Positions 1-29,447 of a stretch of 34,502 nucleotides of DNA are shown here, piece by piece. A program made the position numbers and the translations under genes. The notes under the pieces are model-generated. The model worked only from the letters and a program-made list of their open reading frames with translations, did not search any database and was not told the DNA's origin. The stretch comes from Komagataeibacter melaceti (GTDB lineage Bacteria > Pseudomonadota > Alphaproteobacteria > Acetobacterales > Acetobacteraceae): positions 1 through 34,502 of the forward strand of contig NZ_QUWV01000104.1 of NCBI RefSeq assembly GCF_003403295.1, read 5' to 3'. The first letter of the stretch is position 1, and every line of letters begins with the position of its first letter.

Positions 1-275
1 GCATTTCGCTGGAGCGAAAATACGCAGAAGAAAGATACGACAATGCAATCAATGTGACCTCTTGCATCGTAAAGGCCGTCCACATAAGCGGGACATGGAC
101 AAACCATCCGTGCGGGCCGGACAGGCAGGTCAGCCCAAAGGAACCACCTGACCTTGCATATCTCTCAAGGTGTCCACGGTCCGACAGGGGAAGGTGACCG
201 GTGCTCAGGTCGAGGAATTTCCGGATCTGGAAAGGCGCTAACATCGGGTTTCTCCCTGCTTAAGGATGAGGCGGG
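1..275. other. left edge, no supported gene
   Basis: No start codon with a ribosome binding site and no recognisable protein was found here. One plus-strand frame is open from the window edge to about position 212, so the tail of a gene entering from the left cannot be excluded, but its translation matches nothing I recognise. The stretch also lies downstream of the stop of the minus-strand gene ending at 276 and could hold its terminator; I see no convincing hairpin. Confidence 0.4.
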
Positions 276-1301
276 TCAGACCGGCCCGGCGCTCTCGCCG
301 AATGCGCCAGCGGGCAGGACCCATTGTTCGGGGGATGTGAGGACACGGCCACGCCAGCGGTGGCAGAGCGCGCGGCGCACCAGACCCGGGTGCTGGCGCA
401 CGGGGCCGTAGACCGTGCCGCCCCTGGCTAGCGTGCCGAGGTCCCGGTCGCGTCGAATGGTGCAACCAAATGCGCGTTCCCACTCACACAGCCGGGCGAA
501 CCGATCCGGGTCCATGTGACGCAGCGTCGCAGCCTGATCGGCAGACATGAATACACATGTCAGGCAGGACAGGCGGCCAAACCCGAGCTGATAGGGAAGC
601 GGCGGAATCACGCCATGCCGACGCAGGATCTGCCAGACAGCCGCTTCACTCCAGGCATGTACCGGCCGCCAGTGATCGATATGCCGTCGGATCCGACCAT
701 CACGACAGTCTGCCCGGTGCCGCTCAAAGACAGCGTAACGGGCACGGTTCGCGGACTCCGCCGCGCGTTCTCCGGTTACAAACAGGGTCCGGGCATGACT
801 GAAGCGCGCCTGGTTCCGCAGGGCGCCATCCGCAACCATGATCTTGGCGTATGGGGAACACCAGCGGACCGACAGGTTCGCCGAAACCTGCGGGAAGCGG
901 CGTCGCGTATTGGGCGGTCCCTTGCCACCGACAGTGACCCGCCCTGTCGGGGTATCGAACCAGACCGGTGCGGTCGGCGCATTCTCGCGCAGCATTTCCC
1001 GCACGATCCCACCCTGGCGCGCGGAGAAATACAGCCTGACGCCAAGGGCCGCAGCCAGATGCCGCCCGTAATCGGGCACATGCGGCCAGTCAAAAACGTC
1101 CCCGTCATCGTCCACACGATGGTGCCACCACTCGATGCGCTGCGGCGCCACGCCCTTTTCGAGCAGGTGCAGCGTACTGGCGAGGGAATCCTTGCCAAAG
1201 GAACAGGCGACGATGACGTGATCATAACGCGCCAGATCAGGTATCTCTCCGGGCTCCGGCGCGACAGTTCCTTGGTGGGATGACAGGCTTGCGGTCGCCA
1301 T
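276..1301 (-). CDS. PP-loop / PAPS-reductase-like protein
   Basis: A 341-residue protein of the adenine nucleotide alpha-hydrolase (PP-loop) superfamily, close in motif layout to phosphoadenosine phosphosulfate reductases. The PP-loop SFGKDS is at residues 34-39. An RWCSPYAKI segment at 146-154 resembles the RxC..K phosphate-contact region of the family, and a GERAAES motif lies near 177-183. A CLTC pair at 246-249, with C272 and C280, could hold an Fe-S cluster as in DndC-like proteins. That cluster is an inference. ATG 1301 is chosen over ATG 1307 because AAGGAG lies about 7 bases upstream of it. It is the last gene of a minus-strand block with a ParB-domain protein and a methylase-helicase, so a role in nucleic-acid modification is more likely than sulfate assimilation; no cysteine biosynthesis gene is nearby. 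The exact substrate is unknown. Confidence 0.8.
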   Translation of the reverse strand: MATASLSSHQGTVAPEPGEIPDLARYDHVIVACSFGKDSLASTLHLLEKGVAPQRIEWWHHRVDDDGDVFDWPHVPDYGRHLAAALGVRLYFSARQGGIVREMLRENAPTAPVWFDTPTGRVTVGGKGPPNTRRRFPQVSANLSVRWCSPYAKIMVADGALRNQARFSHARTLFVTGERAAESANRARYAVFERHRADCRDGRIRRHIDHWRPVHAWSEAAVWQILRRHGVIPPLPYQLGFGRLSCLTCVFMSADQAATLRHMDPDRFARLCEWERAFGCTIRRDRDLGTLARGGTVYGPVRQHPGLVRRALCHRWRGRVLTSPEQWVLPAGAFGESAGPV

Positions 1302-1463
1302 GGACATTCTCCTTGTCTGAATGTCTTCTGGCGGTCCGACGGGGTATCGCGGGTCAAACGCGGCGCGCGCGCCGGCATCGCAGGCCCGCGGAGCGGGACA
1401 AGAGCCACCGTTTGAGGCGCGATGGCCCTTCGGGCATATTTTTCCTGTGTCTTCCTGCTCTTC

Positions 1464-1877
1464 CTATGCGTCCGCGTTCAGGTATTCGTGCAGATACCGG
1501 CGCAGCACCACGCAGGCTGCATGGGTGTCCCGCTCACCGTCATCCGCAAGGACACGATCCATCACTCTGGCGAGAACGGCGGCGGCCTCTCGGCCCGGGC
1601 TGAAAACAAGGGAAAACCCAAACTGTCCCTGCAGCACGCCGGTTCCCGCATCGTGGACCATGGCCACGATCTCGCCATGGACGACTTCCTCGACCTCAAG
1701 GTCCACTTCCTGACCGTCAGGCAGAATGGTGGTCCGGATCCCGTCAGAGTCCACACTGTCGGGGACGGCATCGAGGACGATCCGCGCAGCAGCCTCAGCG
1801 TCCGTCGCCGTGACCCTGAAATCGCCGGCATCCGCTTCAAACAGGCGCTCAACCAGCGTGACACGAAAATCAGGCAT
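1464..1877 (-). CDS. hypothetical protein, 137 aa
   Basis: I do not recognise the family. The product is acidic (many Asp and Glu, especially residues 15-70) and soluble, with no membrane segment or signal peptide. An N-terminal stretch of the form FRVTATDAEAAARIVLDA resembles the small beta-alpha folds in which one helix follows a strand. The start ATG at 1877 has a GGGAGG about 6 bases upstream. The start overlaps the end of the upstream gene by 8 bases, so the two are probably translationally coupled. Their position between the ParB-domain gene and the PAPS-like gene suggests an accessory role in that block. Confidence 0.7.
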   Translation of the reverse strand: MPDFRVTLVERLFEADAGDFRVTATDAEAAARIVLDAVPDSVDSDGIRTTILPDGQEVDLEVEEVVHGEIVAMVHDAGTGVLQGQFGFSLVFSPGREAAAVLARVMDRVLADDGERDTHAACVVLRRYLHEYLNADA

Positions 1878-2208
1878 TGCCGTCCTCCCTTACCAGGACA
1901 AATTCGCTCAGTGTCGTGGCTTCGCGCCATGGGCAGTGCCACACCATCACGTCCTTTCCGCAGATTTCGGCGACAGAGCCACGCTCTCTCAGCCGGGCCA
2001 GCTCGGCCGACGTGACTCTGGGAACCGCCGTGAAAGCGGAAAATTCGACTACTGCCGCCTCCACGCTCTCATAGGGTCCCCGCCATCGGCGGGCCGTAGG
2101 CGGATAGATTTCAGGCGTCCGGATCAAAACCCCACCATCCGGGCGGAAACCCAGTTCAACCACATACCTGCCGATCAGACGCTTTTCCGTCATGTATTCA
2201 TCGGTCAT
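1870..2208 (-). CDS. hypothetical protein, 112 aa
   Basis: The family is not recognised. The protein begins MTDEYMTEKRLIGRYVVELG and appears to be a small soluble alpha/beta protein with several Trp and Arg residues around positions 35-45 (RRWRGPYESVEAAVVEF). ATG 2208 is preferred over the GTG three bases upstream because AGGAGAA precedes it at normal spacing. Its 3' end overlaps the next minus-strand gene by 8 bases. About 180 bases separate it from the stop of the upstream ParB-domain gene, so it may share that transcript or have its own promoter. Confidence 0.65.
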   Translation of the reverse strand: MTDEYMTEKRLIGRYVVELGFRPDGGVLIRTPEIYPPTARRWRGPYESVEAAVVEFSAFTAVPRVTSAELARLRERGSVAEICGKDVMVWHCPWREATTLSEFVLVREDGNA

Positions 2209-2391
2209 CACGGTTCTCCTTCGCCGACGCAGGTGAACGCGTAACCTGACGTTCTGGATAAGCCCGGTGGGGGCGCATCGCAGAATTTCCCGGTCGACGT
2301 CCTGCCAGAGGCCGTTGCTGGCTCACCGCCCGACGTCACCACTGAGGGCGACGGGCCGTGAGCCAGAGCCGTACGACGGCAACAGCCTCGC

Positions 2392-4269
2392 TCAGCTGAA
2401 ACCTACAAACTCAACATGCGTCCTGAGGAATTCTTCAGGTGTCTGCGATGGCGGAGCCGGACTTTCCGCCCTGCCATGCGGCACATCATCCTCCTGATCT
2501 GTCGCAGCAGGATCATCGGTTCCCGGGCCATCCGCCGGCGCAACAGCATCCGCGTCGTCTTCCAACTCCGTCTCGTCGTCATGCGCCAGTTCCCCATCAT
2601 CGTCATCCGCTTCGGATGGCGGGGCGAGCGCTTCCGCGAAGGTGGCGTTCAGCGCTGCGACATCGACCTGGAAACGCGCAGCAGGATGCACCCAGCTCCC
2701 CTGCCCGACATGGTCCATCAGGGCGCGGCGCATTTCCTTGCCGGTATTGCGCGGCAGGATACCTTCCGCCTTTATGGCCTTCGTGATGCCGGACTTACTA
2801 AGCGTTTTCAGGAAGTCTTCATCCGCCATGGCGGGCAGATGGTCGTCCGCTTTCACGATATGGCCGACCAGGACACCCCAGTCGCCGCTATTCGTCGCGT
2901 TCTTCTCGCAGGACAGCACGGCTTTGAGCACGTCGACAGCAGCGCCACGCAGGAGCGCCTCGTCCAGCGCCATCTCGCCATCCTGGAACAGTCCGGCGGC
3001 GGCCACGAGCCGACGTGACGGACGGCGCTGCGGGTAGTGTGCGTTGGAATCCCCGTCCACCCGGACATTCTGCGCGTTGAGGGCCGCGATCATCAGCCCG
3101 ACCAGGACCCATGGATCGGCAGAGCCCCGGATGCCGTCCAATGCGGCATGCAGCGCCTGGGTGCGGAAACTGCCAATCATGTCAAAACCACGCCCCGAGA
3201 TATCGGGCCGTTCCCGTGGCCCTTCGGGCAGGGCTTCAATGACGGCGGACGGCGTCACGCGACCTGCCGCCTCGCTGCCCGGCAGGACGCACCAGCCCTC
3301 GCGAACCTTGAGGCGATGATCGAGCCAGAAGAATTTCGTGGCGCCCTCGCGCTGCCAGTAGATCCGGACCATGCCGGGTTCGAAGACCGGCTCGCCGTTC
3401 TCGTCGCTCTGGAGGATCAGTGCGTCTTCAGGCGTGTTCTGACCCAGCCACTGGCGCTGCGCCTTCTCGTAGGCGAAGCCGTCATCGGTATAACGGCCGT
3501 CCTTCCCGGCTTCACCGAACAGATCCTCCTGCCAGGCGATCCGGCAGCTTTTTGCAATGGCGTCATCAAACGAGGCCTCAATTGCATAAAAACGATCCTG
3601 CCGCAGGGCTGACGCAATCCGGTCCCAATCGGGGATGGCAGCACCGGGTTCCCAGTTTCCGTCGGGCAGTTGCGCGCCCTCATCTTCGCAGGCTTCGACG
3701 TCCTCGGGCGGCGCCGCGCCAACCGGAAACCCGAAATGGCCCCAGACCTGTTCCTGCAGCGCGGTTGACGCAAGGGCGATACTCGCCAGTTCACGATTGC
3801 CGGGACCTTTTCCCGCCTCGATCCACGCCAGAATCTCGGGCAGGATGGCAGACAGGCGACCGATCTGCTTCAACTGCACCGGTGTGAGCATCAGCGCCTT
3901 GCAGATCGCGGTATCATTCCACTTTTTTTCCTCCCGAAGCCTGGCGACAACCCGCCACTGTTCAACCTGGGTCATGGGCTGACGGATCATGTTCTCCGAT
4001 GCGGCACGCATCCGGTCCAGTTCCGCATCATCGCCTGCCACCGTCACCTGAATGGTTTTCAGGCCGGCCTTGACTGCGGCACGCCGGCGGCGATGCCCTG
4101 CAACGATCATCAGGCCGTCAGGAGTTTCGCGGACCAGAGGCGGGTGGATGATCCCGACGGCCTTGACGTTCAGCGCCAGCTGGCGCTCTTCCGCCTCATT
4201 GGGCGCGGATTTCCGCGGGTTTTCGGGGTTGTCGAGCAGGGTTTTCGGATCAACTTCGCGCAGTTCCAT
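2392..4269 (-). CDS. ParB N-terminal domain protein, 625 aa
   Basis: The N-terminal 100 residues form a ParB/Spo0J nucleotide-binding domain: LLDNPENPRK near residues 11-20 and GHRRRRAA near 58-65, the latter matching the arginine-rich ParB box. A ParB-type helix-turn-helix follows at about 125-155 (AICKALMLTPVQLKQIGRL). The long middle part is unassigned. The tail, roughly 555-615, is strongly acidic and rich in Asp, Glu, Ala and Pro. At 625 residues it is nearly twice the length of a partition ParB, and the true partition ParB of this replicon lies at 13800. This copy is therefore probably a DNA-binding or nuclease-like accessory protein of the methylase-helicase block. CGGAG lies upstream of ATG 4269. 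It sits about 180 bases downstream of the methylase-helicase gene. Confidence 0.8.
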   Translation of the reverse strand: MELREVDPKTLLDNPENPRKSAPNEAEERQLALNVKAVGIIHPPLVRETPDGLMIVAGHRRRRAAVKAGLKTIQVTVAGDDAELDRMRAASENMIRQPMTQVEQWRVVARLREEKKWNDTAICKALMLTPVQLKQIGRLSAILPEILAWIEAGKGPGNRELASIALASTALQEQVWGHFGFPVGAAPPEDVEACEDEGAQLPDGNWEPGAAIPDWDRIASALRQDRFYAIEASFDDAIAKSCRIAWQEDLFGEAGKDGRYTDDGFAYEKAQRQWLGQNTPEDALILQSDENGEPVFEPGMVRIYWQREGATKFFWLDHRLKVREGWCVLPGSEAAGRVTPSAVIEALPEGPRERPDISGRGFDMIGSFRTQALHAALDGIRGSADPWVLVGLMIAALNAQNVRVDGDSNAHYPQRRPSRRLVAAAGLFQDGEMALDEALLRGAAVDVLKAVLSCEKNATNSGDWGVLVGHIVKADDHLPAMADEDFLKTLSKSGITKAIKAEGILPRNTGKEMRRALMDHVGQGSWVHPAARFQVDVAALNATFAEALAPPSEADDDDGELAHDDETELEDDADAVAPADGPGTDDPAATDQEDDVPHGRAESPAPPSQTPEEFLRTHVEFVGFS

Positions 4270-4332
4270 GGTTTTTACTCCGTGTTCTCAGGACGCCTTT
4301 CCTGATGCACTCCGGCGGCCAGCACCGGGCTG

Positions 4333-4422
4333 GCGGGGCAAGGGCGCCGCGCAGCGGCGGCACCGGACCCGCGCGCAGGCGGCGCAGACGCCGAGCACGG
4401 GGAGGCGCCACCCCTTGCGGCG
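4333..4422. repeat. 90-bp GC-rich repeat, copy 1
   Basis: This intergenic segment between the methylase-helicase gene and the ParB-domain gene matches 9695-9784 at about 84 of 90 positions in the same orientation. It starts near GGGGCAAGGG and ends near ACCCCTTGCGG, so its ends are partly complementary, and it contains smaller GC-rich palindromes such as GCCGCGCAGCGGC. It may form an RNA or DNA hairpin in the untranslated leader of the downstream gene. Its function is unknown. Confidence 0.85.
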
Positions 4423-4446
4423 CCTGGCCGGAGATGGCAGCCCTTC

Positions 4447-7400
4447 TCAGGCTGCCGCCTCTTCTTCCTTCTCCCTGTCCTCGGTGTCGTCATGCGCCGG
4501 GTCTTCATCGGTCGCGGTCGCCGCCAGATCGTCTTCCAGCGCTTTCAGCTCCGCGCGCTTTTCATCAAGCATCGCCTGTTCCGCGAACGGCAGGCCCAGA
4601 CGGGCCCGGTAGGATGGCAGGCGACGCTGCGCTTCCTCCCGCATCCGGATTGCGTCACGGAGCGCGTCATCGATCCGAAGCAGCGCATGCTCGACACGCG
4701 ACGTCAGCCCAAGGCCCTTCGTGTCGTCCTCGACGGCGATCTCAATGCGACCCGAGCGCGCTTCCACAAACAGCGTCACGTCGACCGCGCGCTTTTCGTA
4801 GTACACGCGACGGCCAGGCCCAGCTTCGCACATGACGGCGAACCCACCGATGCGTCCGAGGTTCCAGACCCCTGCCTCGCCGTTCTTCGCCGCCAGGCGG
4901 ACCTGTAACAGGAGCCATGACCCGGCCTTCTCACGTTCGCTGACATCCCCCTTGTCCCGACGCAGTACGAACGCATCCCCCTTCGTGGGCTGACGGCTGG
5001 CAATATCCGCCTCGATAAGCGGGATCTGGCGCTCCGCGCCCGCAATCTCACGCTCGGCCCGGTCGATGGCACGTTTTACGGCGAACTGGTCGTCATAATG
5101 GGCGGCCGCGAGTCTCTCCAGCCGCGCAAGATCGGCCTCCAGCCCGGCTTTGTGCATCAGCCGGGCATCGCCTGAGGCGAGCGCCTTGGCCATGGCGAAC
5201 TGGTTTCCCCCTTCCCCGCCAATGTCCTCAATCCGGCGGATGGAACGGTCACCTGACATCGCAAGGCCAATAAAGCGCTGCTTGCGTTCGAGGAGCTGCC
5301 AGTTGGTCGCGTCAACGGAACCCTGCTGGGCATAGGCGTAGAGTTCGATTTCCGCGTGCTGGTTGCCCTGCCGCTCGATGCGACCCTCGCGCTGGATGAT
5401 GTCGGAGACCAGCCACGGCACGTCGAGATGGTGCAGGGCCTTGAGGCGCTGCTGGGCGTTGACGCCGGTGCCCATGGTCGCCGTCGAGCCGATCAGGATC
5501 CGCTTGCGGCCGGCATTGAGATCACCGAACAGCTTCTGCTTCGCCGCACTCTTCCTGTAGTGCTGCATGAACGCGATTTCCGCGCGCGGCACGCCCAGGC
5601 GGATCAGTTCATCGCGGATCCACGTGTAGGCGGAAAAACCGCGTGTCTCCATCGCGCTCTCGGTGCCCAGATCCGAAAAGATCATCTGCACCGCCCCCGG
5701 CAGGTCGTACGGCCGACCGGTTTCAGGATCGCTGTAACGGCTTTCCGATGTCTCCTGCCAGATCCGGAACACGTTCCCGATCATCAGGTTCAGCTTCGAT
5801 GTGTCGTCATTCGCGGCAAGAGGGGCGACGAAGCGCAGGTCGATCGCGGCATGACGGGCATCCGTGATGACGGACAGGAGGATGTCATCGCCCTTCTGGG
5901 GACGCCCCTGGCGTGCTTCGATGGCGTTGATGCGGGCCGCCAGCGTCTTCTGGTAGGCCCTGAAGTTATCGTTTGTCGGCGCGACAATAATCTCGCGACG
6001 CCCGCCCCGGATTGCTGGCAGAGTCACGTACTGGCGCAGGTCATCGTGCTGCACGACATCCGCGAAGTCGCGATACATCGCCATGAGGTCGGCGACGTTG
6101 ACGAACTCGGTGAAGCGCGTGACCGGCTTGTAAAGCCCGCTTGGCTGCAGTTCCAGTTCGGTACGGGTCTCGCCAAAATTGGCTGCCCAGGCATCGAATT
6201 CATGCAGGTAGCGCTTCTGCAGCGCCTCAAGATCCATATAGCGGCTGACCGTCCACATCTCGGCCAGCGTATTGGTGATCGGGGAGCCGGACGCCATGAT
6301 CAGCGGGCGTTCCGGATTTTTTGCCGCCAGGTAGCGCGTCTTCACGAAGAGATCCCAGGCCCGCTGCGAGCCGTTCGGATCGACCCCCTTGAGGTCGGAC
6401 TGGTTGGTTGCAAAACTCAGCTTCCGGAACTGCTGCGCCTCGTCGACGAGGATCTGGTCGATGCCGATCTCTCCCAGATGCACGAGATCGTCCTTTCGAG
6501 CGGCAAGGCCTTCCAGCTTCGCCTGCATCTTCTCCTTCATGCTCTCGACCCGCTTGCGCGACAGGCGGTCGGCCGCGTCGACGCTTTCCAGCACTTCCTC
6601 GTAAGACGCGATCTGCGCCTCGATCATCTGGCGTTCGAAATCCCCCTCCACCGGGATGAACCTGAATGCATCATGCGTGATGATGATCGCATCCCAGTTT
6701 CCGGTCGCGGCCCGGGCAAGGAACCGCTGGCGCTTTGCCTTCACGAAGTTCGTCTCGTCGGCGACGAGGATCCGCGCGGTCGGGTAGAGCATGAGGAATT
6801 CGCGGGCCATCTGGGCGAGGCAGTGACCGGGGACGGCGATCATCGCCTTGCTGATCAGGCCAAGCCGCTTCTGCTCCATGACGGCCGCAACCATCGAGAA
6901 GGTCTTTCCGGAGCCGACCGCGTGCGCGATATACGTACCGCCCGCGGCGATGATCCGCCAGATCACCCGTTTCTGGTGGGGCCGCAGGCTGATCGTGGTG
7001 CTTGCGCCGGGCAGGCGCAGATGGGAGCCATCAAACGCGCGTGCCACGAGGTTGTTGTAGGTATCGTTATACAGCCTGACCAGCCTCTCGGCCCGATCGC
7101 CATCCTGCCAGACCCATGTCTCGAACGCACGCTTGATCGCCGCCAGTTTTTCCTTTGCGGCTTCCGTCTCCTGTGTGTTCAGTTCGCGGTGCTCATTGCC
7201 ATCGCCATCACGCCAGACATCCCATATTTTTGGCGATGCCTGCGTCAGGGCATCTTCCAGCAGTTCGCCGGCATGTCGCCGTTCCGTCCCCCAGACTGAC
7301 GTAGCCTCGGCCATGCCCATGAACGCCCGTTTCTCCACGGTCCAGCAGGCAACCGCGGGCGCGTGATAGATGACCGTTTCGACCCCGAGCACCTCGGCGG

Positions 7401-9537
7401 TAAAGGCGATGATGTCGCTGACCGGCAACCAGGGAGCGCCAAGGCGCGCGGTGATCTCCGACGGACGCAGATCTGCTGGCTGGACGGCTTCCAGCGCCGT
7501 GATGTTCCGGGCGTAGCGCCCATCGATCCGGGCTGCATCGCGTGCTTCTTCCAGCTTGGTCCGCACGGCGCCGGAGAGCATTTCATCAGCCGTAACCCAG
7601 ACATCGCGACCATCCACGCTTCGTACCGGATCGAGATAAACCGCATCCCCCAGTGCGGCCGCGACCTCAGCTTCGGACTGTCCCATGAGTTCCGCGATCC
7701 GGGGCATTTCCACACCGCCTGTTTCATGCAGGCAGACGGCCAGGGCGTCGTGGGCGGAATGGATCTCGGGTTCGACAGGCGCATGAATGACCCGTTCAGA
7801 GAAAATTGGTCCCATCCGACCTTTCTGTGTCGCCTCGTCGTATTCCTCGATGGACGAGACCAGCCAGACGTCGGGATCATCGTAAAATGGCGTCAGGTTC
7901 GGTCGCCGCTGGGTTTCGTTTTCAACCCCGGTTTCCGGATCGATCCGGACCGTCACATTCATCAGGTTGATCGGGCCGAACTGTCGGACAAAGCTGAAAT
8001 AGGCACGCTTCAGATCACCCTGCAGGCGTCCATAGGGCAGGTTCTCCATCTGCGCTCGCAGCACCGCGCGTGCCGCATCCCGGACGGGTATCAGCGCGGT
8101 AATGATCCGGGCACGCTTCTGGAAGAGGCCATCCTTCTGATCTCCCTTCCTGATGGCGACCGTGGTGGGCTGTCCGTCGCAGATCTGCTGCAGGACGCCT
8201 TTCGTGACGAAGTAGGAGCCCTCTTTCAATTGGGCGCCATCGGCAGCCGTGCCGACCAGCACACCGGCTCCCGCCGGCCGGACAATGCGCTGGTTCAGGG
8301 GTTCCGGAAAGCGCACGTCCTGCCCGATCCGGTCCAGGGCCTCGGGCAACATCACATCGAGCCTGCCGTCGGCACGCGCGTCGCATGTATAATCGGGACC
8401 GAACTGGGTGGTGGTCCAGCCGTGACGGCCAAGCACCTGCTCCGGGTGGTCGAGGAAGTAGCGATTGACGAGGAGCGGACCGTTACCATGGTCGCTATTC
8501 GCAAGGGCGCCGGTTTCCAGCCAGGTCTCGTCATCGACCATGTCGCCGATCATGCGCTTGCGGAACACCAGTACGTCCACCACCACGTCCGTGCCGGCGT
8601 CATCGCGCATTGCTCCGGCCGGGAGCCGGACTGCCCCCACGAGGTCAGCCATGTCGGCAATGGTCCGGCGCGCGGTGCTGTCCGTCTTGTCCAGCGTATG
8701 GCGGGACGTCACGAAAATTGCGATGCCGCCCGGGCGAAGTGCTTCGATGGATCGGGCAATGAAAAAATCATGCAGGCTCAGGCCAAGCCGTCCCAGACCT
8801 TCCGGGCCACGCACGGTGCGATTGGAAAAGGGTGGATTACCGATCGCAAGGTCATACCCGTTTGCGAGCTTCACTGTCGTGAAATCCTCGCTGCGGATCC
8901 ACTGGTTTGGATAGAGCCTGCGTGCGATCCTTGCCGTAATCAGATCATTCTCAATCCCGGTAAAGGCGATGCATCCTTCGAGCCTTTCTGGTCGGGCCGC
9001 GATGAAAAGACCGGTCCCACAGCCGGGTTCAAGCACGGAACCGCCTCTGAAGCCCATCTGCAGCACCTTGTTCCAGAGTGCGTGCACGATCAGTTCAGGG
9101 GTAAAATGCGCATATTGTGTTGCGCGCTTCAGTCCTGCCCTTTCAACATCTGTTGTGGAGGCATGGATCGCCTCGCCAACCTCTTCCCAGCCTGGGCGGG
9201 CGCTATCGCTCCCGGATGGAAACAGGTTGTTCGCCAGTTCTCCAGCTCCAAAGCCGATGAAGCGTGACAGGACGATCTGTTCGGGGGACGAAGCGTTTCG
9301 GTCTGCTTCTTCGATCTCCTTGAGCAGCGCGATTGCCAGCGCGTTGTCACGCGCCCGCTGTTTCCAGGTGTCAGCGAGGCCTCGGTCGGTCATCATATGA
9401 AAGTCGATCTTGGGAAGGGCCATCGCGGCCGGCAAGACAGGGGGCGAGCCATCTTCGCCTTCAAGTTCGCCCCAGAAAAGGTCGTTCTGGGTATCTGCGA
9501 GAGCGGTTGTGCCGAAGAGGTTGAGCTGGAACGACAT
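4447..9537 (-). CDS. DNA methylase-helicase fusion (COG4646, DarB-like)
   Basis: A 1696-residue protein joining an N6-adenine-type methyltransferase to a superfamily 2 helicase. SAM motif I is VLEPGCGTG at about 168-176 and the catalytic motif is NPPF at 234-237. The helicase part has Walker A HAVGSGKT near 870, a DEAQ box near 1028, a SGSPITNT motif III about 80 residues later, and QREGRIERQG motif VI near 1385. A long charged, probably coiled-coil stretch lies around 1460-1530, and the C-terminus is acidic. This layout matches COG4646 and the phage P1 DarB anti-restriction protein, which is packaged to shield DNA from type I restriction. ATG 9537 has GGAG 8 bases upstream and is preferred over ATG 9564. 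The inference is DNA protection or remodelling for a mobile replicon; methylation has not been shown. All key motifs are present, so it appears intact. Confidence 0.88.
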   Translation of the reverse strand: MSFQLNLFGTTALADTQNDLFWGELEGEDGSPPVLPAAMALPKIDFHMMTDRGLADTWKQRARDNALAIALLKEIEEADRNASSPEQIVLSRFIGFGAGELANNLFPSGSDSARPGWEEVGEAIHASTTDVERAGLKRATQYAHFTPELIVHALWNKVLQMGFRGGSVLEPGCGTGLFIAARPERLEGCIAFTGIENDLITARIARRLYPNQWIRSEDFTTVKLANGYDLAIGNPPFSNRTVRGPEGLGRLGLSLHDFFIARSIEALRPGGIAIFVTSRHTLDKTDSTARRTIADMADLVGAVRLPAGAMRDDAGTDVVVDVLVFRKRMIGDMVDDETWLETGALANSDHGNGPLLVNRYFLDHPEQVLGRHGWTTTQFGPDYTCDARADGRLDVMLPEALDRIGQDVRFPEPLNQRIVRPAGAGVLVGTAADGAQLKEGSYFVTKGVLQQICDGQPTTVAIRKGDQKDGLFQKRARIITALIPVRDAARAVLRAQMENLPYGRLQGDLKRAYFSFVRQFGPINLMNVTVRIDPETGVENETQRRPNLTPFYDDPDVWLVSSIEEYDEATQKGRMGPIFSERVIHAPVEPEIHSAHDALAVCLHETGGVEMPRIAELMGQSEAEVAAALGDAVYLDPVRSVDGRDVWVTADEMLSGAVRTKLEEARDAARIDGRYARNITALEAVQPADLRPSEITARLGAPWLPVSDIIAFTAEVLGVETVIYHAPAVACWTVEKRAFMGMAEATSVWGTERRHAGELLEDALTQASPKIWDVWRDGDGNEHRELNTQETEAAKEKLAAIKRAFETWVWQDGDRAERLVRLYNDTYNNLVARAFDGSHLRLPGASTTISLRPHQKRVIWRIIAAGGTYIAHAVGSGKTFSMVAAVMEQKRLGLISKAMIAVPGHCLAQMAREFLMLYPTARILVADETNFVKAKRQRFLARAATGNWDAIIITHDAFRFIPVEGDFERQMIEAQIASYEEVLESVDAADRLSRKRVESMKEKMQAKLEGLAARKDDLVHLGEIGIDQILVDEAQQFRKLSFATNQSDLKGVDPNGSQRAWDLFVKTRYLAAKNPERPLIMASGSPITNTLAEMWTVSRYMDLEALQKRYLHEFDAWAANFGETRTELELQPSGLYKPVTRFTEFVNVADLMAMYRDFADVVQHDDLRQYVTLPAIRGGRREIIVAPTNDNFRAYQKTLAARINAIEARQGRPQKGDDILLSVITDARHAAIDLRFVAPLAANDDTSKLNLMIGNVFRIWQETSESRYSDPETGRPYDLPGAVQMIFSDLGTESAMETRGFSAYTWIRDELIRLGVPRAEIAFMQHYRKSAAKQKLFGDLNAGRKRILIGSTATMGTGVNAQQRLKALHHLDVPWLVSDIIQREGRIERQGNQHAEIELYAYAQQGSVDATNWQLLERKQRFIGLAMSGDRSIRRIEDIGGEGGNQFAMAKALASGDARLMHKAGLEADLARLERLAAAHYDDQFAVKRAIDRAEREIAGAERQIPLIEADIASRQPTKGDAFVLRRDKGDVSEREKAGSWLLLQVRLAAKNGEAGVWNLGRIGGFAVMCEAGPGRRVYYEKRAVDVTLFVEARSGRIEIAVEDDTKGLGLTSRVEHALLRIDDALRDAIRMREEAQRRLPSYRARLGLPFAEQAMLDEKRAELKALEDDLAATATDEDPAHDDTEDREKEEEAAA

Positions 9538-9631
9538 GGCCGTGCTCCGTACAAACGCCGGCACCCGGCGCTGCTTCTGCAGGCCGGGATGTTTCCGGGT
9601 CAGGTTTTCGGGATGTCAGGAACGGGTGTGC

Positions 9632-9655
9632 TAATCAGGTTGTGTCGCCTGATTA
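9632..9655. promoter_or_regulatory. inverted-repeat operator candidate
   Basis: TAATCAGG and CCTGATTA form a perfect 8-bp inverted repeat separated by 8 bases (9640-9647), a half-site spacing typical of dimeric regulators. It lies about 95 bases upstream of the methylase-helicase start codon, between that gene and the 90-bp repeat. The cognate protein is not identified; no small regulator is encoded next to it. Confidence 0.55.
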
Positions 9656-9694
9656 CTCTTTCCTTCAGCTCTTATTGCGACCGGGTCGGGCAGT

Positions 9695-9784
9695 GCGGGG
9701 CAAGGGTGCCGCGTAGCGGCAGCACCGGACCCGCGCGCAGGCGACGCAGACGCCGAGCACGGGGAGGAGCTACCCCTTGCGGCG
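9695..9784. repeat. 90-bp GC-rich repeat, copy 2
   Basis: This is the second copy of the segment at 4333-4422, differing at about six positions. It lies upstream of the methylase-helicase gene on the same strand orientation as copy 1, so each of the two large genes has one copy ahead of it. It is much more GC-rich than the rep-side sequence that begins right after it, so it also marks the edge of the replication backbone. Confidence 0.85.
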
Positions 9785-9978
9785 TGCTGGTCGATCTGGT
9801 GCCACTCCCTAAATGACTTTGCGGACTAATCTCTTAATCTTATTCTTCTTCTGGAAGCAAACTTACCACCCGTTCAGCTTGAATGTTACGAAAAAGCGGG
9901 TAGTCACACATCCGATCGCTATGTCGCAGTCGTTTAAACTTTTACAGTCGACCGATAGTCAAAATGGATTGTCGCTGG

Positions 9979-10000
9979 AAAATTGCAACGTTGCAATTTT
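9979..10000. promoter_or_regulatory. parS-like palindrome 1
   Basis: A perfect 22-bp palindrome with core ATTGCAACGTTGCAAT. The same core recurs at 11735 and 13687, and with one change at 11910. It lies just past the stop of rep. Dispersed identical palindromes around a ParA/ParB locus are typical of centromere sites bound by ParB; assignment to the ParB at 13800 is inferred from proximity. Confidence 0.65.
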
Positions 10001-10090
10001 TGAGAAACCTCTAAATCGACATAGAGACGACCTGCGTTGTCGCGCCCGATTTCGCATTTTTAGCGTCATAGAAGCGTTCTCGGCTCACGT

Positions 10091-11188
10091 TTACGGATTA
10101 CCTCGACGGTTGTGATAACTTTCGCAAAAGCCTTTCCATGCCGCTTTAAGCTTGGAACCATGCAGCTTGCCAAGTCGCTCACCGAGATGGTCTCGGAATG
10201 CATCGGCAATCAGGTCGATATCCCAGCCCCCGCCAGAGGAACGCGCTATTCTAGCGAATATCTCTTGGTCGGCTCCAAACTGGAGAGAACCGGCTGGGAA
10301 CATTACCTGCCCATCGCTTTTCGCAGCCGCGGGTCGTACTACTTGATTGCGTTGTGTTTCTAATTCGCGGGTAGTCGTTTGATGATCTATGACCTTTGGG
10401 GTTTCCTTAGGTCGGAAAACAATCTCGAGTTCTCTTACTGCTCTTCCTTGTCTTATTTCCGTCCACTCGACCGTAAAATGCGCCAGTTCGTCGATTTCAT
10501 TCTTACAAACGGTCAATACTTTTCGCCGCAACTGAGCAAAGTCTTTATAGACGTTAGGTGAGATCCCTAAAGCAGCACGAAATGCGATGACGTCACCTTT
10601 CCATACGGTTTGACGTCTCTTCACGCGCAAGGCCCCAATTTCGTAAAGTTTAAGCGCATAAGCCGAACGAAAACCCAATACAGCGGTGCGGTTCATGACC
10701 GCATAGGTCTCAGACTCTTGGATTAGTCTTCGGGCATCGGGAGTAAATTCCCACTCAATCCAACCGACTTCTTTTCCAGGCTCTGTGTCTTCAACCTCTT
10801 CCCTTGAAGAGGCAATCAGAGAAAATCGTCGCGTCGCTTTTTTACCTCGCCAGGAAATGTCGTCTTCGGCAAATAGAGTACCATGCAGTTCTTCAAGCAT
10901 GTCACTTATGCGTTCGTTACCTTTGTGACCTCGCCTGATGTCTGCTTTGCGCATGCGGTGGACCACTGGCTTCCAAGCATCGCCACCGGCTACAAGGATC
11001 ATCAACGCGAGTAGACGTGATGCAGTCAGGCTTAGCGATTGGCCTCTGACGAAACGTATCTCTACAAGGTGGCCAGGTTTGGCAAATTCGTCGGCACCCT
11101 TATGCTGTAGAGCGCGAGCAACACGCATGGCGCGTTTTGGTGCTTCATCACTTTCGGATGCGTATTGCATGGGCGGGTTATCCAGCAC
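10091..11188 (-). CDS. Rep_3-family plasmid replication initiator
   Basis: A protein of up to 365 residues resembling Rep_3 (PF01051) initiators, which use two winged-helix domains to bind iterons and open the origin. The N-terminal winged helix spans roughly 40-150. The conserved central segment is YAVMNRTAVLGFRSAYALKL near 190-210. The second winged helix includes FRAALGISPNVYKDFAQLRR and an EIDELAHFTVEW strand. The start is uncertain: GTG 11188, or ATG 11170 giving about 359 residues; neither has a strong ribosome binding site. A perfect inverted repeat sharing the iteron core lies just upstream (11212-11240), so the gene is probably autorepressed by Rep dimers. Iterons follow on the upstream side. 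It appears intact. Confidence 0.85.
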   Translation of the reverse strand: MLDNPPMQYASESDEAPKRAMRVARALQHKGADEFAKPGHLVEIRFVRGQSLSLTASRLLALMILVAGGDAWKPVVHRMRKADIRRGHKGNERISDMLEELHGTLFAEDDISWRGKKATRRFSLIASSREEVEDTEPGKEVGWIEWEFTPDARRLIQESETYAVMNRTAVLGFRSAYALKLYEIGALRVKRRQTVWKGDVIAFRAALGISPNVYKDFAQLRRKVLTVCKNEIDELAHFTVEWTEIRQGRAVRELEIVFRPKETPKVIDHQTTTRELETQRNQVVRPAAAKSDGQVMFPAGSLQFGADQEIFARIARSSGGGWDIDLIADAFRDHLGERLGKLHGSKLKAAWKGFCESYHNRRGNP

Positions 11189-11211
11189 CTAACGGGACGA
11201 ACGATTCGTAT

Positions 11212-11240
11212 CCTGACCTTAGAATGAGAATAAGGTCAGG
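11212..11240. promoter_or_regulatory. rep operator (inverted repeat of iteron core)
   Basis: CCTGACCTTA (11212-11221) and TAAGGTCAGG (11231-11240) form a perfect 10-bp inverted repeat with a 9-base spacer. The half-site CCTGACCT is the first eight bases of the iterons. This is the usual arrangement in iteron plasmids, where Rep dimers bind an inverted repeat at the rep promoter and Rep monomers bind the direct repeats. Confidence 0.8.
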
Positions 11241-11422
11241 TGAAGGGGAAATTGGGCATCTCAGCATCTTCTCGCGGCCGTACATGGTGCTGAGAAGTAA
11301 GGTTTCTTATGAAGATTTTTATCAACACGACCGCAGCGTGCTGCGGGGGATTCTGATTCTATTCAAGTGATTCTGATTCAAGACAAAAAGTACTAGGAAA
11401 ACCAACGACTTTTAGAGCATTT

Positions 11423-11506
11423 CCTGACCTCGTGGGGGACCTAGCCTGACCTCTTGGGGGATAGTAACCTGACCTCGTGGGGGATCTAACCTGACCTCGT
11501 GGGGGG
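11423..11506 (+). repeat. iteron cluster A, four direct repeats
   Basis: Four copies of a 17-bp unit CCTGACCTCGTGGGGGA begin at 11423, 11445, 11468 and 11490, so the period is 22-23 bp, two helical turns. The second copy has CTCTT in place of CTCGT and the fourth ends in G. Regular helical phasing is what Rep monomers need to load side by side at an origin. Confidence 0.9.
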
Positions 11507-11734
11507 CGGTCAGTTAAGATAGCTAGTTTTGGGGAAGTGCCCACACGTTATTTTAAGAACTTTCATGTTGACGGTCGCAAACCGGTATCTATGGGACTTG
11601 CGCGTGTTTTTTAATGAAATCTATGAGTGCGATTCGCAGTTTAACGGGCTTTCGTCTCTTTTTTAGATCTCGTTCATAGCTGCCGCAGCTGCCATGACGA
11701 TGTTCCACGCCAGATGATTGCCCAGTGTGGGTGG

Positions 11735-11750
11735 ATTGCAACGTTGCAAT
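11735..11750. promoter_or_regulatory. parS-like palindrome 2
   Basis: ATTGCAACGTTGCAAT, a perfect 16-bp palindrome identical to the core of the sites at 9979 and 13687. It lies between iteron cluster A and the DnaA-box-like site. Confidence 0.65.
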
Positions 11751-11800
11751 TATTTGAAGGTATATGGATTCCCTTGCGAAAAACGCGAGGTTACTAGCCT

Positions 11801-11809
11801 TTTTCCACA
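11801..11809 (+). promoter_or_regulatory. DnaA-box-like site
   Basis: TTTTCCACA fits the relaxed DnaA box consensus TTWTNCACA. A 9-bp match alone is weak evidence; the position between the iterons makes it plausible. It may help the host DnaA and Rep melt the AT-rich stretch just beyond 11926. Confidence 0.4.
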
Positions 11810-11909
11810 AGTAACTGACCTACCCGGTCGGCAGTAAGCGACGGTATGGGTAACCCAGCTCGCAGCACTATGCCGATGTCCCTGAGGCAACTGAACGCAT
11901 TTGTCCCAA

Positions 11910-11925
11910 ATTGCAATGTTGCAAT
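11910..11925. promoter_or_regulatory. parS-like palindrome 3 (one mismatch)
   Basis: ATTGCAATGTTGCAAT differs by a single base from the perfect palindrome at 11735, 175 bases away. It lies immediately before the A-rich stretch of the origin. Confidence 0.55.
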
Positions 11926-12118
11926 CTCTAATATGTGGCAAAGAAAATTTCGAAAAAAAAAGCTCACTAAAGATTAAAGCGAAAGTGACTGGGTAACTGA
12001 AGGCCTGATGTGGTTGCTTATTTTGGCAGCGCCACCGAGATGCTCGACTGGAAGCTACTGCATTCGGCTAGGGGGGGAATTCAGTGTTCCGCTGTTCTTA
12101 TTGATGCAGGGACAAATA

Positions 12119-12253
12119 TCCCCCACGAGGTCAGGGTAAGCATTTGTAGCTTGCCCCCCCAAGAAGTCAGGATAGCGACGTGCGCCGATTGGGATCCCCC
12201 ATAAGGTCAGGATACCTCGTACATCTTATCATATGCTCCCCCAAGAGGTCAGG
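12119..12253 (-). repeat. iteron cluster B, four inverted-orientation repeats
   Basis: Four further copies of the iteron are on the opposite strand, at 12119-12135, 12155-12171, 12195-12211 and 12237-12253. The first is an exact reverse complement of the cluster A unit; the others carry one to four changes. Spacing is 36, 40 and 42 bp, about twice cluster A. The cluster sits upstream of parA and faces cluster A; it could serve handcuffing or copy control, or regulate parA. Those roles are inferred. Confidence 0.85.
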
Positions 12254-12431
12254 ACACTCATCTTTTCGGTTTTTATGTTCGCTGCCTAATACGGCACATG
12301 ATCGTCGCGCTTTGCCGGCATTAAAAAAAGGGAATGGCTATCGAGTTAAGTCTCGACTTTCGAAAAGATAGATATTATCCATCAGAAATCGAAAGTTAGT
12401 GTGCGCCGGACGTTTATCGAAAGAAAGATTT

Positions 12432-13634
12432 ATGACAGCTGATCTCGAGCAAGCCGGATATACGAGTCTCCAAATGGTTGAAGGGCTGGCGGATAAAGCC
12501 GCGGCAGTTCTGGAGAATTTGAGGGAAAGCGCTGTTGCCGCGCGAGCCGGCGAGCGACGAGAACCGACATTTCAGATTGGCCAGGCTGCAGAACTCGTAG
12601 GCCGGACGCCTGCAGCCATACGCGACGCAGAAAAGGATGGTCGTCTGCCCAAACCTGAACGGGGAGCCAATAACAGGCGTGTGGGATATACGCTTGAACA
12701 GGTCAACGACATGCGCGGGATCTTTGGCACGCGTCCGTGGCGTGATCCAGGCGACCCGCCGGCAATCATAGCTGTTCAAAACTTTAAAGGCGGTGTCGGG
12801 AAATCAACGGTTGCTGTTCACCTTGCGCAATATCTCGCGATCCAAGGCTATCGCGTGGCGCTGATCGATTGTGACAGCCAAGCGTCAGCAACAACGCTCT
12901 TTGGTTACGTGCCAGATTTAGACCTTACTGAGGATGAGACGCTTTATCCGTTTTTGCGGCACGATGAACGTTCGTCACTGAGCTACGCGCTCAAACCTAC
13001 GCATTTCGATGGTCTATATCTGATACCGTCTAATCTTCGGCTGTTTCAATCTGAGTATGAAATCGCCGCGCGGATGGCTCAGGGCGAGCCTGGGCTTGTG
13101 GATCGGTTGTCGGTAGGGCTGGCATCTATAGCGCCAAATTTTGACGTTATAATTATGGATCCTCCTCCTGCCTTGGGAGCAATCTCGCTTTCTGTGCTGA
13201 GGGCAGCAAATGCATTGGTCGTTCCGGTGCCCCCGACAATTATGGACTTTTCGTCAACGACGGCCTTCCTGTCGATGCTGGAGGAGACATTGCGGACGCT
13301 AGCGCAGTTTGACAGGGCTCCTTCTCTAGAGTTTCTCAAATTCGTGGCTTCTCGGGTTGAAGAGAACAAATCGATTCACAAGGAACTTATCAAGCTGATG
13401 CAGGCTATTTTCGGCCATCATCTAGTTAGAGCCCCTCTGAAAAATTCTGCTGAAATCGACAATGCCACAGCTCGACTCATGACTGTGTACGAACAGCAAG
13501 GAGCGATCACAAGCAAGTCGGTTCGTGATCGCTGCCTTACCTATCTGAACGCAGTTTGTAAGGAGCTTGAAACGGATATTCGGGGAATGTGGCCTAGTCA
13601 TCAGGAGCGGCTTCGCAGGGAAGGACTGGTGTAA
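12432..13634 (+). CDS. ParA-type partition ATPase
   Basis: A 400-residue ATPase of the type Ia ParA group, which positions plasmid copies on the nucleoid together with ParB. An N-terminal helix-turn-helix lies around 50-105 (IGQAAELVGRTPAAIRDAEK, then NNRRVGYT), typical of ParA proteins that also repress their own operon. The deviant Walker A KGGVGKST is near residues 117-124, and LIDCDSQASAT (motif A') and VIIMDPPP (Walker B) follow. An in-frame GTG at 12399 would add 11 residues; ATG 12432 is preferred, although its AAGAAAG ribosome site is modest. parB follows after 165 bases that contain a parS-like palindrome. Iteron cluster B lies just upstream and may overlap its regulation. Confidence 0.92.
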   Translation: MTADLEQAGYTSLQMVEGLADKAAAVLENLRESAVAARAGERREPTFQIGQAAELVGRTPAAIRDAEKDGRLPKPERGANNRRVGYTLEQVNDMRGIFGTRPWRDPGDPPAIIAVQNFKGGVGKSTVAVHLAQYLAIQGYRVALIDCDSQASATTLFGYVPDLDLTEDETLYPFLRHDERSSLSYALKPTHFDGLYLIPSNLRLFQSEYEIAARMAQGEPGLVDRLSVGLASIAPNFDVIIMDPPPALGAISLSVLRAANALVVPVPPTIMDFSSTTAFLSMLEETLRTLAQFDRAPSLEFLKFVASRVEENKSIHKELIKLMQAIFGHHLVRAPLKNSAEIDNATARLMTVYEQQGAITSKSVRDRCLTYLNAVCKELETDIRGMWPSHQERLRREGLV

Positions 13635-13686
13635 TTTTTTCGTGGAGGTGGCGGTTCATTGAACTCTCGCAAATCGTCAATTTCTG

Positions 13687-13708
13687 AAAATTGCAACGTT
13701 GCAATTTT
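13687..13708. promoter_or_regulatory. parS-like palindrome 4
   Basis: A perfect 22-bp palindrome, the same core ATTGCAACGTTGCAAT with flanking A and T, identical over 22 bases to the copy at 9979. It lies between parA and parB, about 90 bases upstream of parB. Confidence 0.7.
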
Positions 13709-13799
13709 GGACTGGTGGCGGAGCGAGAAGCGAAGCACGCATTTTCAAAGCATTATTCGAACTTTTTGCAGGTCGAGTAATGTGAAAAAGGAGGGATAA

Positions 13800-14834
13800 A
13801 TGTCGGGGAAAAACAGGGCTTTTGCGGACGGGTTAACAGCTGCAATTTCAGGCGTAACCGGTAGACAAGGCCAGTCTCGTCCAAATCGGTCAATCATTAA
13901 TGATCGTACTAACCGATTAGCAGAAGTTGCTAGCGGTAAAGTTGTTACTCGTACTCACGAGTTTATTGACCCTGCACGATGCAAAATGTGGGAGGGTCAT
14001 AATCGTGATTACGCCGCGTTGTCTTATGAAAACTGTCGCGAACTTATCGAAAGCATTCGTGCGCAGGGACGCCAAGAGGTTCCGGCCATCGTTCGGCGAT
14101 TGACCAACAACCCAGATTTTGATTTTGAAGTGATCTGTGGTGCACGCCGGCATTGGTCTGTTTCGTGGCTTAACGCCAATAATTATCGTGACATTAAGTT
14201 CCTTGTTGAGCCTCGTGAAATGGAGGACGAGGAAGCCTTCCGTATTGCGGACCTAGAAAATAGGGCGCGTGAGGATCTTACCGATTACGAGCGTGCAAAG
14301 GATTACTTGTTGGGTCTTGATCGGTACTATCATGGTCGCCAAAAAACGATGGCAGATCGGTTGAACGTCTCTGAAGCATGGTTAAGCCGGTACCTCGACC
14401 TTGCTAGATTGCCTGAAGCAGTCACTCGGGCATTTGTTAGCCCGCATGATATTCGGCTTAAGCATGTGATGCAGATAAAGCCCCTTATTAAAGAAAGTGC
14501 ATCACGCGAAGTGGTCTACGAGGCTGCTGAACGTATTGCTGCGTTGCGAAGCAAAGATCAGAACTACCTTGTGGAACCTGCCGCGGTGGCTCGCGAACTC
14601 GAGAATGCGGTAGCAACGGAACTGGGACATCTACGTCGCGGCAGCGTGCGCTCGCCTAAACGTGGCGCCGTTGCTATCACTCGCGATACGGATGGCAAAG
14701 AGATTGTAAAAATAGATGCGAAGTCGCCTAAGCGTTTGCAGGTCACTTTCATGCTGGCGGAGCTACGTTCTCGCGAAGAGATGGAGGAGGCAGTTAAACT
14801 GCTGACGGATCGCTACTGGCCCGTTCAAGAATGA
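13800..14834 (+). CDS. ParB/RepB-type partition protein
   Basis: A 344-residue centromere-binding protein. The ParB N-terminal domain runs roughly 55-150, with the arginine motif GARRHWS near 117-123 in place of the common GERRxRA; this is the CTP-binding region in ParB proteins. The helix-turn-helix is at about 180-205 (KTMADRLNVSEAWLSRYLDL). The C-terminal part, from 270 on, is basic then mixed, and probably dimerises. AAAAAGGAGGG lies directly upstream of ATG 13800. It follows parA on the same strand and is the likely binder of the four palindromes. It appears complete and marks the right end of the AT-richer backbone. Confidence 0.9.
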   Translation: MSGKNRAFADGLTAAISGVTGRQGQSRPNRSIINDRTNRLAEVASGKVVTRTHEFIDPARCKMWEGHNRDYAALSYENCRELIESIRAQGRQEVPAIVRRLTNNPDFDFEVICGARRHWSVSWLNANNYRDIKFLVEPREMEDEEAFRIADLENRAREDLTDYERAKDYLLGLDRYYHGRQKTMADRLNVSEAWLSRYLDLARLPEAVTRAFVSPHDIRLKHVMQIKPLIKESASREVVYEAAERIAALRSKDQNYLVEPAAVARELENAVATELGHLRRGSVRSPKRGAVAITRDTDGKEIVKIDAKSPKRLQVTFMLAELRSREEMEEAVKLLTDRYWPVQE

Positions 14835-29437: not shown

Positions 29438-29447
29438 GACATTCGCC

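Follow-up and report, generated by a model that had tools for sequence, protein, structure and literature searches.

Why do a PP-loop/PAPS-reductase-like protein, a ParB-domain protein and a methylase-helicase stand together in one block of plasmid genes, and what might they do there? The question is raised by a 34,502-nucleotide (nt) stretch of Komagataeibacter melaceti DNA (contig NZ_QUWV01000104.1 of assembly GCF_003403295.1), the whole of which we call the window. Its initial annotation described five same-strand genes, including a PP-loop/PAPS-like, a 625-residue ParB-domain and a 1696-residue methylase-helicase protein, and an open reading frame (ORF) listing confirmed all of them as adjoining minus-strand ORFs that fill positions 276-9564 of this Komagataeibacter-type plasmid contig. 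In order of transcription, with gaps of 181, 184, -4 and 160 nt between matched stretches, they are:

4447-9564, minus strand: DarB-like methylase-helicase, 1705 amino acids (aa) from GTG 9564, or 1696 aa from the annotated ATG 9537
2392-4269, minus strand: ParB-like protein, 625 aa
1870-2211, minus strand: s113, a small protein of 113 aa
1464-1877, minus strand: s137, a small protein of 137 aa, whose start overlaps the end of s113
276-1307, minus strand: PP-loop/PAPS-reductase-like (PAPS-like) protein, 343 aa

On balance, we consider it likely that this block belongs to the island by which a large conjugative plasmid establishes itself (its leading region), and that a structured element, here named R1, acts there as the shared leader of one regulon. 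R1 is about 100-165 nt long, contains four covarying helices and stands directly before three of the five genes:

9673-9807, minus strand: R1 copy, 109 nt from GTG 9564 and 136 nt from ATG 9537 of the methylase-helicase; 127.5 bits, E 2e-31; training copy
4311-4445, minus strand: R1 copy, 42 nt from the ParB-like start; 105.5 bits; training copy
1327-1442, minus strand: shortened and divergent R1 copy, 20 nt from the PAPS-like start; 52.6 bits, E 1e-11; outside the training set

R1 came to light in a repeat search: two stretches of 90 nt, one ahead of the methylase-helicase and one ahead of the ParB-like gene, are 93% identical, and ArdC of plasmid pGXY010 has a third copy (77%) upstream. Iterated nhmmer searches collected 72 matches, representing 35 distinct sequences, whose flanks revealed a longer fold, and a covariance model was then built. 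With filters off, this model found nothing further above 12.1 bits in window positions 1-12400; a candidate copy before s113, at best 12.1 bits (E 0.2), was rejected. The gap before s113 (2212-2391, minus strand) folds strongly without an R1 match and may hold a different leader or a decayed copy.

The fold was evaluated in 29 aligned copies (aligned by MAFFT without structure, the structure being chosen on that alignment) and in 91 distinct matches fitted to the R1 model. Training sequences are counted among these 91 matches and in the order, PAPS-locus and spacing analyses below. Among the 29 copies, 92.7% of cells pair compared to 76.8% after shuffling, the covariation score is 0.391 against 0.121 shuffled and at most 0.078 slid, and two-sided changes occur in 17 of 33 pairs (14.7 shuffled). 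In the 91 matches, two-sided changes extend to 27 of 33 pairs against 18.9 shuffled, a count reached by 0 of 500 shuffles, and the covariation score stands at 0.422, compared with 0.119 after shuffling and no more than 0.064 after sliding.

Placement relative to genes was examined in loci obtained from a scan with a PAPS-like profile, which yielded 218 relatives spanning alpha-, beta- and gammaproteobacteria, cyanobacteria, Bacteroidota and others; the best 80 were kept as loci, with flanks of up to 10 kb that were often ended by contig ends. The R1 search covered 78 of the 80 loci, leaving out L129 and L130, of 3.3 kb each; all 102 of its matches lie on the gene strand. Distances from R1 to the start codon are characteristic of the gene that follows: 20 nt for PAPS-like genes (11/12), 42 nt for ParB-like genes (10/11), 25-36 nt for family F4 (17/19), 109-168 nt for methylase-helicases (19/20) and 259-262 nt for ArdC (7/8). 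These were measured with a simple ORF finder limited to 60 aa and longer, which left 6 of the 102 downstream genes unassigned and found none for two copies; strings resembling Shine-Dalgarno sites occur in 71 of 100 cases. In pGXY010, pKNA07 and pKOB1, a small annotated ORF below this limit starts approximately 34 nt after R1 and ArdC comes next, while in locus L220 R1 lies approximately 50 nt before ArdC itself. Together, spacing and co-orientation argue for a 5' leader. With up to 14 matches listed per genome, R1 might instead be a mobile palindromic repeat (REP/MITE-like) accumulating on these plasmids. The uniform orientation, the fixed distance to start codons and the two-sided changes all speak against this, as does the rest of the plasmid DNA searched, since further parts of pGXY010 (33-83 and 206-256 kb, leaving out 83-206 kb) and of pGOX1 contained one weak match (E 0.75), with none below E 0.7 in the pGXY010 parts. 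We consider a mobile repeat hardly credible.

R1 was detected in 55 of 200 genomes from the same order (E 1e-3, 16 candidates scored per genome) and, under a stricter threshold, in 2 of 376 genomes from the class (E 1e-4, 8 candidates scored per genome), one of which is the window's own genome. Within the order it is present in 44 of 46 genomes with a methylase-helicase and 39 of 41 with a ParB-like gene; among the 150 R1 matches listed, 107 are no more than 30 kb from a methylase-helicase gene, 106 of these on its strand. A Methylosinus plasmid also carries R1 (51.7 and 24.0 bits). In other islands, R1 precedes genes for ArdC, SSB, a C5 methylase family, DUF6876, DUF6878 and LPD30/29, and in L231, from another family, a partial match (model positions 30-106) is followed by a DUF2958 gene and then a ParB-like gene. 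The copies directly before three of the five block genes would place these genes in one regulon with those for ArdC, SSB and methylases on related plasmids. R1 was absent at E ≤1 from the stretches of pTiC58, IncC, Acinetobacter and Hydrogenophaga plasmids searched.

Comparison of window positions 1-12400 with Rfam 15 (E ≤5) gave one unrelated match, five loci searched at gathering scores gave none, and no description of an R1-like element in these bacteria was found in the openly licensed literature. By description, the nearest published parallel is EGeRS1 of the Bacillus pLS20 plasmids, which the available text of PMC8708921 presents as a GC-rich, strongly folding region repeated, like R1, upstream of establishment operons, including ardC. 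EGeRS1 measures 400-600 bp with an RNAalifold consensus of five copies (PMC8708921), whereas R1 measures roughly 100-165 nt, has its four covarying helices and belongs to acetic acid bacteria and a few relatives. As far as our searches reach, the R1 regulon is undescribed, and the protein module is of a known kind (plasmid establishment/anti-restriction) in a variant arrangement.

Linkage of the block genes was surveyed by searching the 200 order genomes with each of the five proteins, giving matches in 29 (PAPS-like), 17 (s137), 21 (s113), 41 (ParB-like) and 46 (methylase-helicase) genomes. Co-occurrence is far above chance for every pair of families (Fisher test, relatedness ignored): the methylase-helicase is present in 28 of the 29 genomes with a PAPS-like gene and in 40 of the 41 with a ParB-like gene (2e-34). 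When matches up to 15 kb apart were clustered and split matches of one gene merged, the 38 rows of the PAPS-like search came to 33 places (two fragment rows were dropped), 25 of which share cluster and strand with a methylase-helicase. Conserved linkage beyond this replicon, for which the initial annotation had proposed a search of other plasmids, therefore exists. Nine of these 25 places have the gene order of the window, 14 have PAPS-like first and two have it in the middle; of the remainder, one is on the opposite strand and seven have no methylase-helicase in the cluster, some being on short contigs. Another 15 clusters contain the methylase-helicase and ParB-like genes alone. The complete five-gene order occurs in nine places, all near-identical, and the other linked places arrange the same families differently, so that the 'fixed plasmid cassette' first proposed describes one close lineage: linkage is conserved, gene order is not. 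The closest DNA is on large plasmids: eight plasmid records from Komagataeibacter and Novacetimonas show 96-98% DNA identity over at least 80% of a 12-kb query.

Across the wider set, the best 80 of 218 PAPS loci contained, within the flanking DNA, a methylase-helicase in 43, a ParB-like gene in 32 and ArdC in 17. Those with a methylase-helicase belong to Acetobacteraceae, Methylosinus and two betaproteobacteria (L182 and L198). In seven of the 17 ArdC loci the end of ArdC overlaps the PAPS-like start by 4 nt, an arrangement seen in several genera (L100 2484-4465, L002 14958-16993, L107 3827-5808) that suggests translational coupling; one tested member of this ArdC family (F14) has the ArdcN and MPTase-PolyVal domains. 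Judging from printed sequences rather than a family scan, DNA methylases, SSB or RadC-like genes lie near PAPS-like in other loci. In a 33.5-kb stretch of pTiC58 the methylase-helicase adjoins the ParB-like gene and PAPS-like is absent, while stretches of IncC and Acinetobacter plasmids carry a PAPS-like gene but neither of the others.

The methylase-helicase matches PHROG 10089, 'DarB-like antirestriction', with 1519 bits over residues 64-1700, and is 38% identical to the 'DarB-like antirestriction' protein of BcepIL02 over residues 64-1669. It has an LPD36-type N-terminus (GFGA at 104), followed by adenine-methylase motifs (HFTP at 153, LEPGCGTGLF, NPPF at 243) and SWI2/SNF2-type helicase motifs (GSGKT at 884, DEAQ at 1041, QREGRIERQG at 1391), which are largely kept in an alignment of 55 homologues. 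The available text of PMC5512222 defines a methylase-helicase dyad of polyvalent proteins (LPD36-MTase-SWI2/SNF2) with diagnostic motifs including GXG(G/A/S), TP, NPP(Y/F) and those of SNF2; the block protein has the same motif order and all the diagnostic motifs, differing in that it is a stand-alone protein beside a ParB-like gene. From these motifs, an anti-restriction activity may be inferred. Several plasmid records label this protein 'lactate dehydrogenase', an evident misannotation.

The ParB-like protein has a canonical ParB N-domain and helix-turn-helix (HTH) at about residues 1-175, with a conserved C-terminal region beyond. It matches PF02195, TIGR00180 (69 bits, cut-off 58.45) and PRK13832, a 'plasmid partitioning protein' (E 3e-148; 494.8 bits, under the cut-off of 640), and contains box II/III motifs (GHRRRRA, ENMIR), the first with H in place of the E of the ParB motif GERR. 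The predicted model is of moderate quality (pLDDT 71.7, pTM 0.36). By target-normalized TM score, it aligns with Caulobacter crescentus ParB 6t1f at 0.72-0.74 for two of four chains and 0.41-0.42 for the other two; KorB 8qa9 gave 0.63 and Noc 7nfu 0.66, and the best matches by E-value (7bnr, 7bnk and 7bm8, of Myxococcus xanthus and C. crescentus ParB) reached just 0.45-0.48 by target. According to the text available from PMC12704722, TIGR00180 is used to define canonical ParB organization; the block protein shares the N-domain, HTH, TIGR00180 match and GxRR..A and EN..R motifs of the KorB/Noc/ParB CTPases considered there, and differs from them in its length (625 aa), its extra conserved C-terminus and the lack of a ParA partner in the block and of a ParA-binding motif. 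Motifs and model together suggest that it could form CTP clamps.

The PAPS-like protein matches PF01507 (E 6e-9) and PHROG 424. A 49-sequence alignment retains an intact PP-loop and three invariant cysteines (150, 248 and 251), Cys 274, 282 and 315 not being invariant, and the C-terminal catalytic Cys motif of PAPS/APS reductases, ECGLH, is not conserved in it. The predicted model (pLDDT 91.9) has a CysH-like fold, with a TM score of 0.56-0.58 by target against 6vpu; the PP-loop fold is thus common to CysH-family reductases, while identity to them is 15-16% and the three invariant cysteines are distinctive. We take C150 and C248xxC251 to resemble the three-Cys clusters of the sulfur-inserting PP-loop enzymes TtcA and TtuA, a lead for further work. 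Housekeeping sulfate assimilation was rejected as a role, since the genome has two much stronger PF01507 matches on another contig. Neither s113 nor s137 matched a family in Pfam, NCBIfam, PHROG or PADLOC at the thresholds used. A sequence comparison with the PDB also gave PptA (21fy_C, E 7e-4).

The three cysteines, and a similarity to DndC over residues 144-229 (24 bits), might recall the Dnd or IbrAB systems, to which the initial annotation had likened the block and in which a PP-loop and a ParB/Srx protein would act jointly in DNA sulfur chemistry. This analogy did not hold. The DndC score of 24.1 bits compares with a cut-off of 290.4, DndD (TIGR03185) has no match in the whole genome at E 0.001, and the two genes are separable, the ParB-like family turning up near PAPS-like in only 32 of the 80 PAPS loci within the flanking DNA. 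IbrA carries DUF3440 and IbrB is a ParB with no known HTH, whereas a Pfam scan of the block found no DUF3440 at E up to 1 and the ParB-like protein is of the canonical N-domain and HTH kind, rather than the ParB/Srx nuclease kind. We therefore judge a sulfur-modification pair highly unlikely.

The surroundings of the block were compared across related plasmids. The block of pGXY010 spans 3973-13290. Next on its strand come DUF3085, DUF6878, an ArdC-like zincin (17675), SSB (20771), DUF3991-TOPRIM (21822) and a helicase (23483), alongside a few small genes of opposite orientation, and a MobF relaxase (45583-48801) is again on the block strand. Block, ArdC-like, SSB, TOPRIM and MobF genes likewise share one strand in pKNA07 and pKOB1, and the minus strand of pGOX1 carries PAPS-like, methylase-helicase, ParB-like, DUF3085, TOPRIM, helicase and MobF genes, with no annotated SSB in the stretches examined. 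In all four plasmids the block and TOPRIM genes thus point towards MobF, three of them also having ArdC and SSB. Available text of PMC11541004 describes leading regions in which genes for anti-restriction proteins, methylases and SSB abound and cluster on one strand, as found here; that text does not mention 'PAPS' and has 'ParB' in the reference list only, and the islands described here lie 32-53 kb from the relaxase gene. ArdC has been supported as acting in the recipient (PMC7213743, in the text available). In three of these plasmids, all from Komagataeibacter, ssb comes just after an inverted repeat whose arms measure 45-50 nt (L096 20539-20737, L204 6044-6242 and L203 43311-43509), Frpo/ssi-like in position and recalling the repeat before ssb of F and ColIb (PMC8406263, as far as available).

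In the window as in pGXY010, the block adjoins replication and partition genes. The neighbouring features are:

2-244, minus strand: ORF d81, the following gene of this island, truncated at the window edge; relatives adjoin the block in several plasmids
10091-11188: Rep3-type initiator, upstream of the methylase-helicase
12399-14834: ParA/ParB of the plasmid, upstream of the methylase-helicase, beyond rep

This setting, the ParB/KorB/Noc fold and the PRK13832 name invite the explanation that the block serves plasmid maintenance, with the ParB-like protein as a second partition protein or KorB-like global regulator and the rest linked by nothing but backbone history. The plasmid already owns a ParA/ParB pair, however, and family scans identified none of the block genes as a ParA. 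The ParB-like protein lacks the published ParA-binding motif, a weak argument as the same is true of the window's own ParB. Maintenance also leaves the linkage with ArdC, SSB and methylases unexplained, and we regard it as unlikely. Between rep and parA, short CCTGACCTCNTGGGGG-type repeats form iteron-like arrays in opposite orientation (11401-11505 and 12116-12254), probably replication iterons or partition sites. A choline-sulfatase-like gene and a TonB receptor at 27905-31850, where ORF calls overlap in different frames, are cargo unrelated to the block. Elsewhere in the same genome, an interrupted second PAPS-like gene with an R1 copy (contig C211:1-1466) and a second methylase-helicase/ParB-like pair (contig C92:2-5655) suggest a second related plasmid.

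In F and R388, the side remote from the tra genes is the first to reach the recipient, and genes directed towards oriT use the transferred strand (T-strand) as template. If the block side leads here, its genes, pointing to MobF, would have the T-strand as template, and R1 could act as single-stranded DNA on the incoming strand, each gene having its own folded promoter or its own site for primase loading or protein recruitment (Frpo/ssi type). The plus strand at 9565-9865 does fold as DNA (z -3.45, against 0.22 for 9800-10095). The base pairs themselves can be read both ways: two positions that are mostly U.G/G.U (53/73 and 54/56) would become A.C mismatches in the T-strand, favouring RNA, yet G.T outnumbers A.C solely through these near-invariant wobbles, without which the coding strand has 4 G.T to 14 A.C. 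For this reason we leave the choice between RNA and T-strand DNA open, with a lean to RNA. An AT-rich promoter-like stem was not seen in R1 by eye, the spacing of 20-42 nt before several starts fits a leader, and ssb in three plasmids carries a different inverted repeat. A role on the T-strand is accordingly doubtful in our estimation.

A leader-controlled establishment island remains our preferred explanation, and the DNA-protection or anti-restriction role proposed in the initial annotation is the best reading of the block, given the intact DarB-type motifs and the linkage with ArdC, SSB and other methylases. Within such an island, the methylase-helicase would mark or shield incoming plasmid DNA from recipient restriction, as proposed for DarB. 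The ParB-like protein could bind DNA as a CTP clamp, serving either as a KorB-like regulator or to coat the incoming plasmid, and the PP-loop protein could be an auxiliary enzyme, possibly of sulfur or nucleotidyl chemistry with its three-Cys cluster. R1, most likely as a 5' leader RNA, would keep these genes down in the established host and release them on arrival. In the available text of PMC8406263, an F-type system carries ParB2 and SSB into recipients, loss of parB2 resulting in no SOS rise.

In addition to the wobble count, several observations weigh against this proposal. For R1, two-sided changes in 17 pairs were reached by 26 of 500 shuffles of the 29 copies, pair types are not above shuffles in either alignment (33 against 34.0 and 57 against 59.6) and helix 1 is paired in just 81% of cells. 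The spacing counts are not independent, because many copies are near-identical or from close relatives, and R1 is not needed for block genes as such, because the pTiC58, IncC and Acinetobacter stretches have single-gene relatives without it. Phage P1 DarB has no full-length similarity to the methylase-helicase by tblastn, the match being limited to residues 153-403 (24.6%), in the methylase part only. DarB biochemistry is itself unproven, since fragments of darB on a plasmid can alleviate EcoKI through their DNA, no DarB protein being made (PMC11109961, available text). Plus-strand genes lie between the helicase and MobF in pGOX1, and the 32-53 kb between block and MobF, which includes insertion sequences and other cargo, is beyond classic leading regions, with oriT not located.

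We see roughly even prospects that R1 represents a new class of structured element (RNA or T-strand DNA) defining an establishment regulon of acetic-acid-bacterial conjugative plasmids, expressed in a burst on arrival. How conjugative plasmids restrict anti-defence genes to the first minutes in a new host is understood in few systems, through single-stranded DNA promoters or zygotic repression. The mechanism of EGeRS1 is still open, as far as the text of PMC8708921 extends. The analysis separates the PP-loop/ParB-like pair from Dnd and IbrAB and, if R1 acts as proposed, its association would mark the PAPS-like, s113, s137, DUF6876, DUF6878 and LPD30/29 genes as establishment factors. R1 could thus serve as a sequence tag for finding new anti-defence genes. 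Ultimately, a compact element supported by covariation makes the timing of anti-defence expression directly testable in acetic acid bacteria.

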